From NCBI RefSeq assembly GCF_026016325.1, contig NZ_CP087203.1, positions 6,138,001 through 6,202,000 on the forward strand: 64,000 bases of DNA. The letters run 5' to 3'. The notes below the pieces were generated by a model. The model did not search any database, was not told where the DNA came from, and was given only the letters and a program-made list of their open reading frames with translations. The DNA comes from Pseudomonas sp. B21-056 (GTDB lineage: Bacteria; Pseudomonadota; Gammaproteobacteria; Pseudomonadales; Pseudomonadaceae). Numbering within the stretch: the first letter of the stretch is position 1; each line of letters begins with the position of its first letter. This document shows, piece by piece, positions 43,745-56,656 of the stretch. Made by a program: the position numbers and the translations under genes.

Positions 43745-45385
43745 TCAGAGCCGGAAACGGCCCACCAGCGTATTGAAGGACAACGCCAGGTTGGACAACT
43801 CCTGGGTCGACGCATTGGTCTGGTTCGCCCCCGCCGCGGTCTGGGTCGAGAGATCCTGGATATTCACCAGGTTGCGGTCCACCTCACGGGCCACGTGGGC
43901 CTGCTCCTCGGACGCGGTAGCGATCACCAGGTTGCGGTCGTTGATCTGCGAAATACCGTCAGCGATCTGCTCCAGTGCCTCACCGGTGGCCCGAGCCAGA
44001 CTCTGGGTCTCGGTGACCAGTGCCTGGCTCTTGCCCATGGCATCGACCGCGCCGTCGGCACGATTCTGGACCGCATGGATCATGCTTTCGATTTCACCGG
44101 TGGACGCCTGGGTGCGCGCTGCCAGGGCGCGAACCTCATCAGCCACCACGGCAAAGCCGCGCCCCTGCTCCCCTGCGCGAGCGGCCTCTATGGCTGCGTT
44201 GAGCGCCAGCAGGTTGGTCTGCTCGGCGATCCCGCGGATCACATCCAACACCTTACCGATATCCCGGACCTGCACGGCCAGATCACTGACCAATCCGGTG
44301 GATGAGGTAATTTCCCGGGTTGCATTGTTGATCGCCTGCACCGCATTACGGGCCTGATCGCGTCCATTGCTGGCTTGCGAACTGGTCGCTTGGGAGGCCT
44401 GGGAGGTGGAAACGGCATTGCGGGCCACCTCCTCCACTGCCGAGGTCATCTCAGTCACAGCCGTGGCCGCCTGTTGGATCTCGTCGTTCTGCCGGATCAG
44501 GGCACGACTGCCATCGTCAGTGACCGCGGTGAGCTCCTCGGCGGCGGAAGCCAACTGTTCCGAAGCGCTGGCAATCTGCTGGATGGTGGTTTTCAGGCTG
44601 GTTTGCATATCGCCCAGGGACTTGAGCAACTGACCGGCCTCGTCGCCACTGTTGCTGGTGATGTGCTGGGTCAGGTCACCCTGGGCAATGCGTTGCGCGC
44701 AATCAACCGCTACGGCAATCGGCCGGCTGATCAGCCGACTGATAAACACACCCAACAGTAGCGCCGCGATAAAGGCAATAACGATACCGCTGTACAGAAC
44801 CGTCCTGGCCGACGCTTCCTGGCGTGTGGCGGCCTTGGCGTCTTCGCTGATCTGACGGTCATTGGAGTCGATCATGATGGTCAACTGGTCCATCACCTTG
44901 CGATAGGTCTTCTGCAAGTCACCCATCAGCAGGGTGCGAGCGTTCTCCAGGTCGCCGGCCGCCATCATTGCCACGTACTGCTGCACCATGGCCTGGTAGA
45001 CCGGCCAATCACGGGCCATCTGGTCACCGGCAAGGCGTTCGTCTTCCGCCAGGTTGCCTTGACGATAAGCGGCGAAGGCCTGCTCACTGGCCAACTGATT
45101 GGCTTTCATCGAGGCCAGGAACTCATCCTTCATGCTCTGCGGAGCGTTGCTGGCAGTGGCGATGTACAGCCGGAACATGTCGCGCGTCTGGCCAACGGCC
45201 TTGGTCTTGGTTTGCGCCGTGTTGGCAACCGAGACCAGGTTGGTGTTGAAAGCGGTCTGCAGGCGTGCCGACAACGCAGCAACACCGCTGACGCCAAGCA
45301 TGCCCACGGCGAGCGTGATCAGGGCGCAGAGGAAAAACGAAGTGAGCAGTTTGGTCGAGATTTTTGCGTCATAGAGCCAGTTCAT
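43745..45385 (-). CDS. Methyl-accepting chemotaxis protein (4HB-type sensor)
   Basis: A 546-residue chemoreceptor: short N-terminal helix, TM1 (residues ~13-33), periplasmic four-helix-bundle domain with internal [22 protein letters not shown]2 (~190-210), a HAMP domain and the MCP signalling hairpin [20 protein letters not shown]. Starting at 45385 ([14 protein letters not shown]) gives a typical cytoplasmic start. The ligand is unknown. It is followed at short distance upstream by the histidine kinase gene on the same strand, so the two may be one transcript. Confidence 0.9.
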
Positions 45386-45492: not shown

Positions 45493-46773
45493 TCAACGAT
45501 CATGCGCGGCCTTCAGGGATTGTTCCTGCTCAAGCGCAATTGGCAGTTCCAGTGCAAACAACGCCCCCTGCCCCGGCCCCGCACTCTGCACGGTCAGCTC
45601 ACCGCCCAGCTCATGAGCCGCCAGGATGCAGCTGTGCAGGCCGAAACCGTGACCGTCGACGCGGGTCGTGAAGCCGTGTTCGAACAACCGAGGCAGATTG
45701 TCCATGGAGATACCCTCACCGTTGTCCTCGACCTCTATCCGTACACGCTGGTCGTCAATGGCCTTCAGGCGCAGGGTGATCCGCGAGGGACGGTCGGTGA
45801 CCGGATCAAGCGCCTGTTTGGCGTTGTTGATGAGGTTGATCAGTATCTGCAGCACCTTGTGCTTATCCAGCGCCATGATCGGGGTATCGTTGAGCTCCTT
45901 GACCAGCGTCACGTGATGACGGGCCAGGGACACATGACAGATGCGCACCACATCCTCGATCAACTCGCGCAACGAGCCTGACTCCAACACGCTGGAATTG
46001 CCGGCATAGGACTGCTGGGTGGCGACGATTTCCTTGATATGGTCAATGCTCTTGGTCAGCTGCGCCAACTCATTGATCATGCTTTGCTGCTCGATTGCCA
46101 GCGATTCGGCCAGCTTGCCGAGATAGTCCGGTAGTGCCCGACCTTTCGGGTCGCTGCTGAAGAAGTCGCCGAGATCATCGGAATGCTCCTTCATCAATTG
46201 AACCACCTTGGCGACCCCCTGCCCTTTGGACGTATGGACTTTGTCGTACAGGACCTGGGCCGACACATTGACGCTATTGAGAACGTTGCCCACGTTATGC
46301 AGCACGTTGGTGGCGATTTCCGCCATGCCGGCCCGGCGTGCCGTAGTGACCAGTTCGGCCTGGGCCTCGCGCAACTCGTCGTTGACCCGGGCCATTTGCT
46401 GCGGGCTGGGGATCTTCAGGGCCGCGGGCACCAGCCGGACCAGCAGGACGGCGGTAATCACTGACGCAATCGCGGTGATCACCTTAACCAGCGCCGACAG
46501 CCAGTAGTAGGGTTGCCAGATGGTCAGGATTTCCATCACATGGCTGGTTCCGCAGGCCAGGATGAATACGCCGAAGGCCGCCAGCATCCAGTCGAAAGGC
46601 ACGTCCTTGCGCTTGTGGATAAAGTAGATGAGCGTAAAGGGAATGGTGATGTAGGAGAACGTGATCAGCCCGTCCGCAATCACGTTGGTCCATAGCAGAT
46701 CCGGGCGCCACAAGTAGCAATGTCCATGGGGCATGAAGCGGTTATCGGTCAATAACGCCAGCAAGTCGTTCAT
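45493..46773 (-). CDS. Membrane histidine kinase with ethylene receptor-like N-terminal domain
   Basis: A 426-residue kinase from the ATG at 46773 (GGAGGAAG upstream). Three transmembrane helices (~30-53, 62-82, 92-115) form a domain that aligns with Arabidopsis ETR1 with a constant offset of nine residues: Asp34, Tyr41, Ile44, Pro45, Ile71, Cys74 and His78 correspond to D25, Y32, I35, P36, I62, C65 and H69, the copper/ethylene-binding set. Then a dimerisation helix with H-box EIATNVLHNVGNVLN, N-box LINLINNAKQAL, VEDNGEGIS and GHGFGLHSC ATP-lid boxes. No receiver or response regulator gene is adjacent. The protein is likely a sensor of a small hydrophobic ligand; ethylene is an inference. Confidence 0.87.
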   Translation of the reverse strand: MNDLLALLTDNRFMPHGHCYLWRPDLLWTNVIADGLITFSYITIPFTLIYFIHKRKDVPFDWMLAAFGVFILACGTSHVMEILTIWQPYYWLSALVKVITAIASVITAVLLVRLVPAALKIPSPQQMARVNDELREAQAELVTTARRAGMAEIATNVLHNVGNVLNSVNVSAQVLYDKVHTSKGQGVAKVVQLMKEHSDDLGDFFSSDPKGRALPDYLGKLAESLAIEQQSMINELAQLTKSIDHIKEIVATQQSYAGNSSVLESGSLRELIEDVVRICHVSLARHHVTLVKELNDTPIMALDKHKVLQILINLINNAKQALDPVTDRPSRITLRLKAIDDQRVRIEVEDNGEGISMDNLPRLFEHGFTTRVDGHGFGLHSCILAAHELGGELTVQSAGPGQGALFALELPIALEQEQSLKAAHDR

Positions 46774-46970
46774 GGCCGCTTCCTCCCTGTGCCATTGAAT
46801 TGCCACAAATCGCAGTCTAGCAGAGGCCTGCGTGCTCATTTGCCAGGCCGTCATTACGCCCGCAACATCCTGCCAAGATTTCACCCGCCATTTATCACGC
46901 CGAGGATCGTCCTCACGACTAACCTTCGAAAGCCGCAGGATGCGGCGCCCATTCATTCAAGGAACGATTC

Positions 46971-48464
46971 ATGTCGCTCGCCATTGTCCATAGCCGCGCC
47001 CAGGTGGGGGTGGAGGCTCCCGCCGTTACCGTTGAGGTCCATCTGGCCAATGGCTTGCCGTCGCTGACGATGGTCGGTCTGCCGGAGGCGGCGGTGAAGG
47101 AAAGCAAGGACCGGGTGCGCAGCGCGATCATCAATTCGGGGCTGAACTTCCCGGCGCGGCGCATCACCTTGAACCTGGCGCCGGCGGATCTGCCGAAAGA
47201 CGGCGGGCGGTTCGACCTGGCCATTGCCCTGGGCATCCTGGCGGCCAGCGTGCAGGTGCCGACCCTGACGCTGGACGACGTGGAATGCCTCGGCGAGCTG
47301 GCGTTATCCGGCGCCGTGCGACCGGTACGCGGGGTATTGCCCGCGGCACTGGCAGCGCGCCAGGCCGGGCGTACGCTGGTGGTGCCGCGGGCGAATGCCG
47401 AGGAAGCCTGCCTGGCGTCGGGCCTGAGGGTGATCGCCGTGGATCATCTGCTCGAAGTGGTGGCGCACTTCAACGGCCACGCTCCGGTCGAGCCATTCGT
47501 TTCGAACGGACTGCTCTCGGCCAGCAAGCCCTACCCCGACCTGAATGAAGTGCAGGGCCAGGTCGGGGCCAAGCGTGCACTGCTGATCGCTGCCGCCGGC
47601 GCGCACAACCTGCTGTTCAGCGGCCCACCGGGTACCGGCAAGACATTGCTGGCCAGTCGTCTGCCGGGGCTGCTGCCACCACTGGCCGAGAGCGAGGCCC
47701 TGGAGGTCGCGGCGATCCAGTCGGTTGCCAGTTGCGTGCCATTGAGTCATTGGCCGCAACGCCCTTTTCGCCAGCCCCATCATTCGGCATCCGGTCCGGC
47801 GCTGGTCGGTGGCGGTTCCAAACCGCAGCCGGGGGAAATCACCCTGGCCCATCACGGCGTGCTGTTCCTGGATGAATTGCCGGAGTTCGACCGCAAGGTC
47901 TTGGAAGTCCTGCGCGAGCCACTGGAGTCGGGCCACATCGTCGTCTCGCGTGCCCGCGACCGTGTACGCTTTCCGGCGCGCTTCCAGTTGGTGGCGGCGA
48001 TGAACCCCTGCCCCTGTGGATACCTTGGCGAGCCCAGCGGCCGTTGCTCCTGCACACCAGACATGGTGCAGCGCTATCGCAACAAGCTCTCCGGCCCCCT
48101 GCTGGACCGCATCGACCTGCACCTGACGGTGGCGCGGGAAGCCACAGCGCTGAACCCCAAGAGCGAACCGGGTGAGGACACCGCCACCGTGGCCGAACAG
48201 GTGGCCGAAGCCCGTGAACGCCAGCAGGCGCGTCAGGGCTGTGCCAACGCTTTCCTGGATCTACCGGGTTTGCGGCGGCATTGCACGTTATCCCCAGCCG
48301 ATGAAACGTGGCTGGAAACGGCCTGCGAGCGACTGACCTTGTCGCTGCGGGCCGCCCATCGTTTGCTCAAGGTCGCCCGGACGCTGGCGGACCTTGAGCA
48401 AGCGGGCCGTATCAGCCGGGAGCACCTGGCTGAAGCCTTGCAGTATCGACCCGCTACGGCCTGA
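46971..48464 (+). CDS. YifB/ComM family Mg-chelatase-like AAA ATPase
   Basis: A 497-residue protein with an N-terminal Lon-protease-like domain (SLAIVHSRAQVGVEAPAVTVEVHLANGLP), an AAA core with Walker A GPPGTGKTLLASRLPG and Walker B VLFLDELPEF, a zinc-like MNPCPCGYLGEPSGRCSC loop and a C-terminal lid. The ComM branch drives branch migration of recombination intermediates in natural transformation. Normal length. Converges on the epimerase-like gene with a 6-base gap. Confidence 0.9.
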   Translation: MSLAIVHSRAQVGVEAPAVTVEVHLANGLPSLTMVGLPEAAVKESKDRVRSAIINSGLNFPARRITLNLAPADLPKDGGRFDLAIALGILAASVQVPTLTLDDVECLGELALSGAVRPVRGVLPAALAARQAGRTLVVPRANAEEACLASGLRVIAVDHLLEVVAHFNGHAPVEPFVSNGLLSASKPYPDLNEVQGQVGAKRALLIAAAGAHNLLFSGPPGTGKTLLASRLPGLLPPLAESEALEVAAIQSVASCVPLSHWPQRPFRQPHHSASGPALVGGGSKPQPGEITLAHHGVLFLDELPEFDRKVLEVLREPLESGHIVVSRARDRVRFPARFQLVAAMNPCPCGYLGEPSGRCSCTPDMVQRYRNKLSGPLLDRIDLHLTVAREATALNPKSEPGEDTATVAEQVAEARERQQARQGCANAFLDLPGLRRHCTLSPADETWLETACERLTLSLRAAHRLLKVARTLADLEQAGRISREHLAEALQYRPATA

Positions 48465-49963: not shown

Positions 49964-51940
49964 TCAGCGGAACCGGTCGACCTCTTGGCGCAGGTCCTGC
50001 GCCAGTTTTTCCAGTTCCTTGGCAGTGACGGCCAGGTTCGAGACCACTTCGCGCTGTTCGCTGTTGGCCATGGCGATGCTTTGCAGGTTGCTGCTGAGCA
50101 GGGTCGCCGTGCTGCTTTGTTCCTGGGTGGCGGTGGTGATCGCCGCGAACTGCTGGCCGGCCGAACGGCTTTGCTCGTCGATTCGGGCCAGGGCCGAGGC
50201 CACATTGGCGTTGCGCGACAGACCTTCCTGCATCAACAGGTTGCCCTGTTCCATCGTGCTGATGGCGTTGCCGGTTTCCTGCTGGATGCTGGTGATCATG
50301 CTGGAAATCTCGTCAGTGGCCTGACGGGTACGGGAGGCCAGGCTACGGACCTCATCCGCCACCACGGCGAAACCACGGCCCTGTTCACCTGCACGGGCGG
50401 CCTCGATGGCGGCGTTCAGGGCCAGCAGGTTGGTCTGCTCGGCAATGGAGGTAATCACACCCACGATGCCGCCGATTTCCTGGGAACGCTGGCCCAGGGT
50501 GTTGATGACCGTGGCAGTGCTGTTCAGCGAGCCGGCGATCTGCTCCAGGGAGGATGAAGCTTCTCCCATCGACGTACGACCGATCTGGGTTTGTTGTGCG
50601 TTTTCCTGAGCCAGACGCTGGGTGTTGCTCATGTTGTCAGCAATGTTCAACGAAGTCGCGCTGAACTCCTCCACCGCGCCGGCCATGCTGGTGATTTCGC
50701 CGGACTGCTGCTCCATCCCCTCATACGCACCACTGGACAACCCCGACAGGGCCTGGGCGCGGCTGTTGACCTCCAGGGACGCCTTGCGAATGTGCTCGAC
50801 CATGGTCGACAGCGCCTGGCTCATCTGGTTGAAAGCACGGGACAGTTGGCCGATTTCGTCATGGCTCGACACGTTCAGGCGAACGCTCAGGTCGCCGGCG
50901 CCCAGCGCTTCGGCCTGGCGCACCAGATCGCCCAGGGGAGCCAGCTTGCTGCGCAGCAGCCACATCGCCGCACCGACCGCCAGCAGCATTGCCAACAGGC
51001 TGCCGATGGCCAGTTGCGTACCGACGCTCCAGGTCACCTCGCGGATCTCGGCCTTCGGCATGCTCGCCACCACCGCCCACGGCCCGCCCTCGAACGGTAC
51101 GGCGACGCTGTAGAAATCTTCGGCGGTGTCGCTCCAGAACGCGCCCTTACCCGGTTCTTTCACCAGGCCAACCACGGTGGTGACAGCAGAATCAAGCGCC
51201 TGGACGCCGGCCGGCGGCACCAGCCATTTGTTTTGCTCATCCAGCAGGGCCAGCGAGCCGGTCTTGCCGATACGGAAGCGCTTGAGATTTTCGAATTGCG
51301 CATTTTGCGCGTCGGTGTAATCGAAACCTACATACAGCGCCGCGATGATCTTGCCGCTACCGTCACGAACCGGGCTGTACTGGGTCATGTAGTAACGGCC
51401 GAAAAGCAAGACGCGGCCGATATAGCTCTGCCCACTGGTCAAGCGGGCGTAAGCCGGGCTGGCATGGTCAAGTACGGTACCGATGGCTCGCGAACCGTCC
51501 TGCTTGGCCACCGACGTACTGACGCGGATGAAGTCGTCGCCGCTGCGCACGAACACCGTGGCGGTCCCGGCGGTCATCTGCTTGAACTCGTCAACTTCCT
51601 TGAAGTTGTTGTTCAGCACTTCGCTGCCCAGGCTCAGGCTCGGCGTCTGTACGCCTGCCACAGCAACCGGCTGGTCCGGGTGCACGCTCAGGCCCGCGCT
51701 GAAGCGCTTTTCGAACAGGCCGGCCAAGCGCTGGGTGCTCTCGCGCAAAGTGCCGTGGAAGGTATTGAGCTGATCGGCCATCAGCCGCGCTTCGCTGGCC
51801 AGGTGCTCTTCACGAGTGGCGAGGTTGGCGGCGTCCAGCGAACGCAAGGCGAAGACGGTACTGCCGGAGATCACGATCGCCAATATCACGGCAAGGGCAA
51901 GGCCTAGCTGTGAGGCGATCCGGGCACGGGGTTGGGACAT
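49964..51940 (-). CDS. Methyl-accepting chemotaxis protein with Cache sensor domain
   Basis: A 658-residue chemoreceptor: TM1 (residues ~10-32), a large periplasmic single Cache domain (Cache_3-Cache_2 style, [40 protein letters not shown]), TM2 (~310-332), HAMP and an MCP hairpin [20 protein letters not shown]. The ATG at 51940 (GGAG upstream) is chosen over a longer in-frame start. Such domains bind organic acids or amines; the ligand is unknown. Confidence 0.92.
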
Positions 51941-52127
51941 GACGGCTCCTGGCCGAGACACCGGATCATCCTTGATCACGTCGCACGCTCGGCATTTTAT
52001 TCGAGGTAAGGTATGTATTTGCCCTTTCTGAACGAGGGTTCCATGTTCACGGGTTCGGCAGCAAAGCCAGATACTTGAGCGGCTTGGGGAAATAATATCA
52101 GGCTGCCATCACTCCCACTGCAACGTT

Positions 52128-54729: not shown

Positions 54730-56394
54730 TCAGGCGGTGACTTCCGTCGACTTGTTGTCGAACGTCAGGTATTCCACCAGCTCAGGCAACGGCAACGGCT
54801 TGCTGATCAGGAAGCCCTGCACCTGATCGCAACCGAAACCGCGCAGCAGGTCCAGTTGCTCCCGGGTTTCCACACCTTCGGCCACCACCTCCAGGTTGAG
54901 GTTGTGGGCCAGGTTGATCATCGCGTGCACCAGCTTGCGGTTCTCTTCGCGCTGCTCCATGCCGCCGACGAAGCTCTTGTCGATCTTGAGCAAGGCGATG
55001 GGCAGGCTGTTGAGGTGCACGAACGAGGAAAATCCAGTGCCGAAGTCGTCCAGGGAGAAACGCACCCCGAGGCGACCGAGGGCATCCATGGTCTGCTTGA
55101 CCAGCTCGCTGCGGCGCATGACCGCGGTTTCGGTGAGTTCGAATTCCAGCCACTGGGCTTCAACGCCCCGCTCGGCAATCAACCGGCTCAAGGTCGATAG
55201 CAATTGACTGTCCTGGAACTGCCGGAACGACAGGTTGACCGCCATGTGCAGCGGCGCCAGCCCTCGCTCGCGCAGGGCCTGCATGTCCCGCAGCGCACGG
55301 GAAATCACCCAGTAGCCCAGTGGGACGATCAGGCCGCTCTGCTCGGCCAGCGGCACGAATTCACTCGGTGGCAGCAGCCCGCGCTCGCCGTGACGCCAGC
55401 GCACCAGGGCTTCGAGGCCGACGATATGGCCGCCCTCGAGGTCCAATCGGGGCTGGTAGTGCAGCTCCAGTTCGTCGCGACGCAGCGCCCGGCGCAGTTC
55501 GCTTTCCAGGTCGGCGAGGCTGCGGGCGTTGCGGTTGATGCGCTCGTTGAACACATGAAAAGTGCAGCCCTGGGTGCTCTTGGCTTGTTGCATGGCGATG
55601 TGGGCGTGCCACATCAGCGGATCGGCTCCGGCCTGGGCCCGGGCGTGGGCGATGCCCAGGCTGCAGCCGATCAACAGGCTTTCGCCGTCCACCCAATAGG
55701 GTTCGGCCATGGCTTGGGTGATGCGCTCGGCCATCCATTCGGCCCGTTGAGGTGCCCGGCGGGTGTCGATCAACAGGGCGAACTCGTCGCTGCCCAATCG
55801 CGCCAGTTGATCGCCGGCCTCGAGCGCACCCTTCAGGCGCGACACCACCTGCAGGATCAAGCGATCACCGGCCTGATGACCGAGGGCGTCGTTGGCGTGG
55901 CGGAAGTTGTCCAGGTCCAGGTGACCGAGTGCCAGGCCACGGCCTTCGCTTTCAGCCAGGCGCGCCGCCAGCAGGGTCTGGAACCCCTGGCGGTTGGCAA
56001 TGCCGGTCAACGGGTCCTGTTCGGCAAGGCGTTGCAAGGTGTTTTCCAGTACGCCGCGCTCTCGCACATGGCGCAGGCAACGGCGCAGGGTCGCGCCATC
56101 GAGCAGGTCACGCACCAACCAGTCGCTGGCGCCATCGGGTGGCGTCGCGGGCTCGTGTTCAAGCAGCAGGATGGTCGGCAGATGGCAGCGACCGGGCGCC
56201 GGTTGCAAGGCCGCGACCGTCAGCAGTACCGCGTTGCGGCTGTCTTCGAACAGACTGCTGACCGACTCCCAGGTCGGGGCATTGATCAACACGACCGAGC
56301 CCGCCATGGGCGCCAGGCACTCGCGCAATATCGCTGACCACTCAGGCTCTTCGGCCAATAACAGCAAACGCAAGGGTTCGACAGGCGTGGACAA
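54730..56394 (-). CDS. GGDEF-EAL c-di-GMP phosphodiesterase (ProE-like)
   Basis: A 554-residue protein: a receiver-like N-terminal domain (~1-115) without an obvious phospho-acceptor, a GGDEF domain with degenerate RLGSDEF (Gly to Ser, so probably not a cyclase) and an EAL domain with EALVRW, ELTETAV, DDFGTGFSSF, KIDKSFV and EGVET intact, indicating an active phosphodiesterase. Best start is TTG at 56394, with GGAG upstream; ATG starts further up lie outside the domain. Matches P. aeruginosa PA5295/ProE in position beside rep. Confidence 0.88.
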   Translation of the reverse strand: MSTPVEPLRLLLLAEEPEWSAILRECLAPMAGSVVLINAPTWESVSSLFEDSRNAVLLTVAALQPAPGRCHLPTILLLEHEPATPPDGASDWLVRDLLDGATLRRCLRHVRERGVLENTLQRLAEQDPLTGIANRQGFQTLLAARLAESEGRGLALGHLDLDNFRHANDALGHQAGDRLILQVVSRLKGALEAGDQLARLGSDEFALLIDTRRAPQRAEWMAERITQAMAEPYWVDGESLLIGCSLGIAHARAQAGADPLMWHAHIAMQQAKSTQGCTFHVFNERINRNARSLADLESELRRALRRDELELHYQPRLDLEGGHIVGLEALVRWRHGERGLLPPSEFVPLAEQSGLIVPLGYWVISRALRDMQALRERGLAPLHMAVNLSFRQFQDSQLLSTLSRLIAERGVEAQWLEFELTETAVMRRSELVKQTMDALGRLGVRFSLDDFGTGFSSFVHLNSLPIALLKIDKSFVGGMEQREENRKLVHAMINLAHNLNLEVVAEGVETREQLDLLRGFGCDQVQGFLISKPLPLPELVEYLTFDNKSTEVTA

Positions 56395-56656
56395 GCTGAC
56401 TCCGTAGACTCTGCATGGGGGTAGGCGCTGGGCATTATGACCTGCCGCCGGACAATGACCAGTGCTAATAGTTCTCAAATACTGGCTTCTGGCGAATCTT
56501 TTTTCATTCCAGGCCGAACATCAGCGTCAATCCGCCCCAAATCCCGGGATCAAGCAGCGAAACGCGCCTGCGCGTCACAAGTCGGACAGAGCAGCACAAT
56601 TCTCTGAGCCTGTTAAAATGCCGGCCCATTTTCGCAAACGACTCCCTGACCCTGTC

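Follow-up and report, generated by a model that had tools for sequence, protein, structure and literature searches.

Can a pseudomonad perceive ethylene through a receptor of the plant ETR1 type and, if so, to which output would the signal pass? The question is raised by a gene in the stretch of DNA analysed here (hereafter the window: 64,000 nucleotides of Pseudomonas sp. B21-056, contig NZ_CP087203.1, positions 6,138,001 to 6,202,000), whose product is a candidate receptor for a gaseous plant hormone in a genus with many root colonisers. A literature search that covered titles and opening lines, with few subscription journals, found no ETR1-type receptor of Pseudomonas. The original prediction had called a histidine kinase with an ETR1-type ethylene-binding domain, and its reading frame was found at the place given for it:

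45493..46773, minus strand: ETR1_N sensor kinase gene (P0001), 426 amino acids, divergent from comM with 197 bp between the two

An upstream start for this frame, at 46956, appears in the open reading frame listing; the ATG at 46773 agrees with the close homologues, and a GGAGG lies 8 bases upstream of it.

An ETR1-type ethylene-binding domain

46411..46698, minus strand: ETR1_N ethylene-binding domain, residues 26-121, three predicted membrane helices, with C74, H78, D34 and K97
46717..46728, minus strand: HGxC motif (H16-C19), before helix 1 and outside the Pfam ETR1_N model

The Pfam ETR1_N profile matches residues 26-121 of the kinase with an E value of 1.7e-36 and 124.8 bits (curated cut-off 27), so that the profile search proposed as a check of the prediction places the protein in the family. 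The seven ETR1 residues on which that prediction was built (D25, Y32, I35, P36, I62, C65 and H69) do correspond to D34, Y41, I44, P45, I71, C74 and H78 with a constant offset of +9, a correspondence that, judged by the ETR1_N score, is far beyond chance, and ETR1 K91 aligned to K97. The alignment partners were five plant receptors and an ETR1 sequence; an independent check comes from AzoEtr1, the functional Azospirillum receptor, which has D35, C75, H79 and K98 at the corresponding places (PMC11819568, in excerpt), a constant offset of one from D34, C74, H78 and K97. ETR1 binds Cu(I) through C65 and H69, and a conserved aspartate with a lysine sets the affinity (PMC13012798, in excerpt); for the Pseudomonas domain we infer that copper and ethylene would be bound as well.

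The three predicted membrane helices have their counterpart in an AlphaFold2 model, which gives long helices at residues 24-54, 61-86 and 90-119 (block means of pLDDT 71-89) that would lie in the membrane. By pLDDT (73) the whole model is of moderate confidence, with a pTM of 0.43, the phosphotransfer region being predicted less well and the HATPase_c catalytic domain mostly well, and the structure matches listed (50 of 623) are kinases or complexes containing a kinase. Since spin-label distances measured in ETR1 favour an earlier model over the AlphaFold one (PMC13012798, in excerpt), the details of the kinase model are not relied on.

Conservation was followed in bacterial members drawn by profile, 36 rows (8 from Pseudomonas) in addition to the window protein; L037 (scoring under the cut-off, with no match) and two ETR1_N matches without a locus fall outside it. 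C74 is found in 35 of the 36 rows, H78 and D34 in 34 each, K97, Y41 and I71 in 32 each, I44 in 30 and P45 in 29, and C74 and H78 stand together in 33. All seven residues cited in the prediction are exact in 8/8 Pseudomonas rows and in 17/28 of the other bacterial rows. Among the exceptions, the divergent L033 and L034 have R in place of H78 and have lost P45 and Y41 too, a joint loss that is expected if these residues serve one function; L036 is without C74, and L032 has C74 and H78 but not Y41, P45 and K97. Within a second set of 121 sequences, made up of the query and the 120 homologues listed out of 7998 that passed, D34, Y41, P45, I71, C74, H78 and K97 do not vary, and I44 differs in a single sequence.

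Ahead of helix 1, the HGxC motif is about as conserved as the copper ligands in the bacterial rows (H16 in 33/36, C19 in 34/36). The profile-drawn set was used for this count because the conservation of MPHGHCY in alignment A2 is partly by construction, the homologue search having used MPHGHCY and AFGVFILA. The aligner set C19 against a plant-receptor cysteine in a weakly aligned region. A disulphide or a copper entry site would be guesses at the role of this motif.

A kinase core of the HNxGN type

46003..46356, minus strand: predicted dimerisation and phosphotransfer helices, residues ~140-257, no Pfam HisKA match, lower model confidence
46285..46299, minus strand: H-box H159-N160-V161-G162-N163 (HNxGN), with H159 as the predicted phospho-acceptor
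45538..45867, minus strand: HATPase_c catalytic domain, residues 303-412, with N317, DNGEG (350-354) and GHGFG (374-378)

Past the membrane part, the Pfam matches above cut-off are ATPase-type domains only, with no GAF, HisKA or receiver, and HisKA (PF00512) is absent even at E values up to 1. The motifs of a sensor histidine kinase are intact (H-box H159, N317, DNGEG and GHGFG); none of the 121 sequences lacks H159, N160 or N163, and each ATP-site residue checked is missing from at most one. HisKA kinases carry E or D directly after the phospho-acceptor histidine, and since N160 stands where they have an acid, kinase activity is not to be assumed.

Four other proteins of the same genome share 53-57% identity with the kinase across this core and have the same HNxGN box. 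Two of the four have a DAHL domain as sensor, one has no sensor match, and the last is a large hybrid outside the domain scan; a literature search on the DAHL sensor domain found nothing. We know of no name for the HNxGN kinases or for the class of receivers, here termed DDxPxIH, with which they are paired.

DDxPxIH receivers as candidate partners

The DDxPxIH receivers carry the motif DDTPAIHEDFRKIL near their start. The window genome has three matches (E up to 1e-5), all in one cluster at 5.10-5.11 Mb, beside an HNxGN paralogue and ~1.07 Mb from the ETR1_N kinase: a receiver-GGDEF-EAL protein (Pfam), a second long protein and a receiver-kinase, the gene of the last being overlapped by 4 bases by this paralogue, one of the four HNxGN proteins above. 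A di-haem peroxidase gene also belongs to this group.

Across 398 evenly drawn Pseudomonadota genomes (core at E up to 1e-50, receiver at E up to 1e-30), the HNxGN core was found in eight, from four genera, and the DDxPxIH receiver in exactly the same eight. Four of these are Pseudomonas and, of the remaining four, two share a genus; the chance of an exact match of 4 in 212 genera, assuming independent genera, is ~1e-8, which is only a rough figure given this kinship and the few candidates scored per genome. A class-wide sample of 229 genomes, from which 16 HNxGN loci were fetched in 10 genomes besides the window genome, gave a receiver immediately downstream (overlapping or no more than 62 bases away) at 10/16 loci and in 9/10 genomes. 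The other 6/16 loci, without an adjoining receiver, count against the pairing, and the 16 are not all independent, as L159 and L167 overlap (two kinases in tandem). Further loci of the phylum sample had the receiver directly downstream in 6/7 cases, so that outside the window genome the arrangement is seen at 16/23 loci overall. As a control, 15 other kinase matches in the window genome gave the receiver-kinase itself as sole match, hence 0/14, one of these 14 being another part of an HNxGN protein. Our analysis thus indicates a recurrent kinase-receiver pairing whose kinase half is missed by Pfam HisKA.

For the ETR1_N kinase itself the association is less direct. No receiver lies within ~1.5 kb of the window gene (L127), nor in the sequence retrieved for 18 relatives around this chromosomal site, and within the window genome a receiver stands alongside 1/5 HNxGN kinases, which counts against assigning it to the ETR1_N kinase. 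Among Pseudomonas genomes, the receiver is present in 9/9 of those that carry the ethylene domain versus 51/140 of the rest (Fisher p 0.0002, kinship ignored), an association confounded by kinship, 7 of the 9 sharing one site. Outside Pseudomonas, Duganella sp. BJB480 has the best homologue in another named genus (among the best 80 of 358), full-length at 65% identity, and this kinase, with both the ethylene-binding domain (EBD) and the HNxGN core, overlaps by 4 bases a gene for a receiver-PAS-GGDEF-EAL-receiver protein, after which comes a receiver-kinase sharing 60% identity across 463 residues with that of the window genome. Thus, at one locus, an ethylene-domain kinase stands in a single organism beside the partners predicted for the Pseudomonas orphan.

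Upstream of the Duganella kinase there is another GGDEF-EAL-type gene (L063, 559-3096), whose product carries a receiver at either end and shares 51% identity across 588 residues with that of the downstream gene. In the window genome, three further HNxGN kinases (L147, L148 and L150) are without an adjoining DDxPxIH receiver, and the L150 protein itself contains a receiver of another type; all three may possibly converge on one receiver cluster.

Chromosomal site and neighbouring chemoreceptors

43745..45385, minus strand: 4HB methyl-accepting chemotaxis protein, same strand and 107 bp downstream of the kinase, a variable neighbour outside the proposed system

In close relatives the kinase gene lies between the glnK-amtB side and comM. 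Nineteen same-site loci were counted, namely the window, 16 named loci (L047-L061 and L081), L044 and L045, with L041, L042, L043 and L046 left out as apparent repeats of named loci. The 4HB receptor adjoins the kinase in four (the window, L047, L048 and L061), lies ~4 kb away in 3/19 (L044, L050 and L053) and is missing from the site in 12/19; at E 1e-120 it has a match in 2/9 whole Pseudomonas genomes with the kinase and none in 7/9. The proposed link between an ethylene sensor and a chemoreceptor gene was accordingly not borne out, and we rejected it as a conserved feature. The window receptor gene is near enough to the kinase that the two could be co-transcribed; the variation of neighbours among the loci indicates a variable site for the kinase, with the receptor apparently a transient neighbour.

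Several minor observations concern this region. L044 has an oxidoreductase-like gene group (by eye) between kinase and receptor. Pseudomonas without the kinase can have near comM a small gene that we take to be ubiK-like, ~150-240 bases from comM (e.g. L188-L190, L192 and L194); at other kinase-less loci it lies farther from comM or was not seen. The comM gene itself (window 46971-48464) has matches that in several Pseudomonas genomes fall into two pieces separated by ~4 to 36 kb (examples are G014, G024, G029, G032, G048 and G049), and in L051 a 44-residue piece of comM directly adjoins the kinase gene, with a complete comM 2.4 kb from that piece. The comM side of the variable site has the appearance of an insertion hot spot. 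A second chemoreceptor, with a Cache_3-Cache_2 sensor (49964-51979, minus strand), is kept in place at 16/16 named loci (L047-L061 and L081; in L051 it is partly off the end). A GGDEF-EAL-like protein (by eye; 54730-56478, minus strand) is encoded 8 kb from the kinase, and nothing links the two. P. batumici (L062) and P. gingeri (L064) have the kinase at a second site, near recF- or gyrB-like genes, where it stands beside cheA-/cheY-like genes (by eye), in the part of these two loci at ~1-6 kb.

Proposed pathway and alternatives

Our preferred reading, which on sequence evidence we consider probable, is that of an ethylene sensor kinase feeding the distant DDxPxIH receiver cluster and, through it, c-di-GMP. 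It starts from what is observed: the sensor domain with its residues, catalytic motifs that are intact, and the co-occurrence and adjacency of kinase and receiver in other genomes. The kinase would be an inner-membrane sensor protein with a dimeric ETR1-type domain, in which ethylene would be bound via Cu(I) held by C74 and H78, while D34 and K97 would couple binding to helix movement. Bound ethylene would then alter both the bundle of helices and the dimer's activity as a kinase, and the signal would pass along the linker to the HNxGN-class core, predicted to autophosphorylate on H159. From H159 the phosphate would go to the DDxPxIH receivers, the presumed partners across the genome, changing the activity of the GGDEF-EAL protein and of the receiver-kinase. 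With GGDEF-EAL receivers as the target, ethylene would thus presumably adjust c-di-GMP, upwards or downwards, and hence a switch between motility and attachment. A biofilm output would fit AzoEtr1, with which ethylene lowers biofilm formation, and SynEtr1, with which ethylene raises it (PMC11819568, in excerpt). The predicted output is specific enough to be tested, comprising three receiver genes in one cluster.

Four other readings were weighed. The 4HB gene 107 bp downstream on the same strand would suit an ethylene sensor with a chemotaxis output, via the neighbouring chemoreceptor or a che system, as would the kinases of P. gingeri and P. batumici near cheA-/cheY-like genes (by eye) with a weak receptor match close by, and Pseudomonas TlpQ reportedly mediates chemotaxis to ethylene. 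Histidine kinases, however, normally do not signal through a receptor protein, and with the chemoreceptor in 2/9 kinase genomes and adjoining at 4/19 same-site loci this output seems very unlikely to us. The domain may alternatively have ceased to bind ethylene and sense copper, redox state or another small molecule, a reading that could draw on H16 and C19, conserved in bacteria to roughly the same degree as the copper ligands; yet the residues needed for ethylene binding by ETR1 are kept, and L033 and L034 lost H78 along with P45 and Y41, and we regard such a change of ligand as decidedly unlikely. An inactive core that only modulates other kinases would account for the missing HisKA match and the N after the histidine, and one source labels the relative P0087 a 'putative incomplete histidine kinase'. 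The retention of H159, N160, N163 and the checked ATP-site residues in 120 or 121 of 121 sequences, together with the recurrence of the HNxGN box in kinases of several genera with a receiver alongside, makes a pseudokinase highly improbable.

Closer to the preferred reading stands an ethylene sensor that phosphorylates some other response regulator or regulators. No receiver lies near the kinase gene, AzoEtr1 and SynEtr1 reportedly have their own regulators (PMC11819568, in excerpt), and most EBD genomes use different cores, the HNxGN core being found in 2/29 (G000 and G190), of which G190 has its EBD on a different contig from its HNxGN kinases. Against this, the HNxGN core and the DDxPxIH receiver co-occur and adjoin, and a different regulator appears to us unlikely.

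Comparison with known ethylene receptors

The kinase resembles Arabidopsis ETR1 in all seven cited residues, in K91 and in its three membrane helices, whereas the GAF, HisKA and receiver domains of ETR1-type plant receptors (Pfam) were not matched in it. AzoEtr1 of Azospirillum brasilense likewise joins an N-terminal three-helix ethylene-binding domain to a histidine kinase, with D, C, H and K in equivalent positions one residue further along, and in a plant-associated host; it binds ethylene, affects biofilm and root colonisation, and has a PAS domain and an adjoining response regulator gene (PMC11819568, in excerpt), while the Pseudomonas kinase has no PAS match, an HNxGN core and no adjoining regulator that we found. 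SynEtr1 (Slr1212) of Synechocystis is similar in its ethylene-binding domain and its histidine kinase output to a response regulator (PMC11819568, in excerpt) but differs in sensing light too, through a phytochrome-like part (PMC10452086, in excerpt), and no phytochrome-like domain appeared in the Pfam scan of the Pseudomonas protein. With the HNxGN/DDxPxIH pairs of Pseudomonadota the kinase has in common the H-box and the 53-57% core identity to four kinases of its genome, of which two carry DAHL sensors instead. The ethylene-domain relatives SynEtr1 and AzoEtr1 being already known, it is the proposed wiring that looks new.

In wider terms, the HNxGN/DDxPxIH class may have taken up the ETR1-type domain as one interchangeable input, with several sensors serving one receiver cluster, and in the P. 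corrugata group, Duganella, P. gingeri and P. batumici both c-di-GMP and attachment to roots may be under the direct control of plant ethylene. We hold this extension tentatively, at slightly less than an even chance. If true, it would mean that in bacteria the ethylene domain has been adopted by kinase systems of quite different kinds.

Distribution among genomes

The ETR1_N domain was found in 9/149 Pseudomonas genomes and in 29 of 398 evenly drawn Pseudomonadota genomes (28 over the cut-off), the latter count agreeing with the statement of a review that many proteobacteria carry ethylene-binding-domain proteins (PMC7700396, in excerpt). Among the best 80 of 358 matches, named carriers at 84-97% identity include P. 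corrugata, P. mediterranea, P. uvaldensis, P. tehranensis, P. brassicacearum, P. thivervalensis, P. agronomica, P. frederiksbergensis SI8, P. zanjanensis, P. citri and P. kilonensis, followed at 62-65% by P. batumici, P. gingeri and Duganella sp. BJB480. P. ogarae, a root coloniser that is not known as a plant pathogen, also appears among the 120 listed homologues. Judged by its nearest named relatives, which include P. corrugata, P. mediterranea, P. brassicacearum, P. kilonensis and P. thivervalensis, the host is plausibly a plant-associated pseudomonad.

The ACC deaminase gene acdS (TIGR01274) was considered as a companion of the kinase and rejected as too weak, being present in 14/149 genomes and in 3/9 kinase carriers (Fisher p 0.04, kinship ignored), and the window genome has none over the TIGR01274 cut-off. 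All 914 plasmid records fell below 60% identity to the kinase, two places spanning 83% of the query at 27-30% identity. The best plasmid matches, at 54%, are on NZ_CP138514.1 and NZ_CP138516.1 of Variovorax paradoxus and cover the kinase core (residues 130-412) only.
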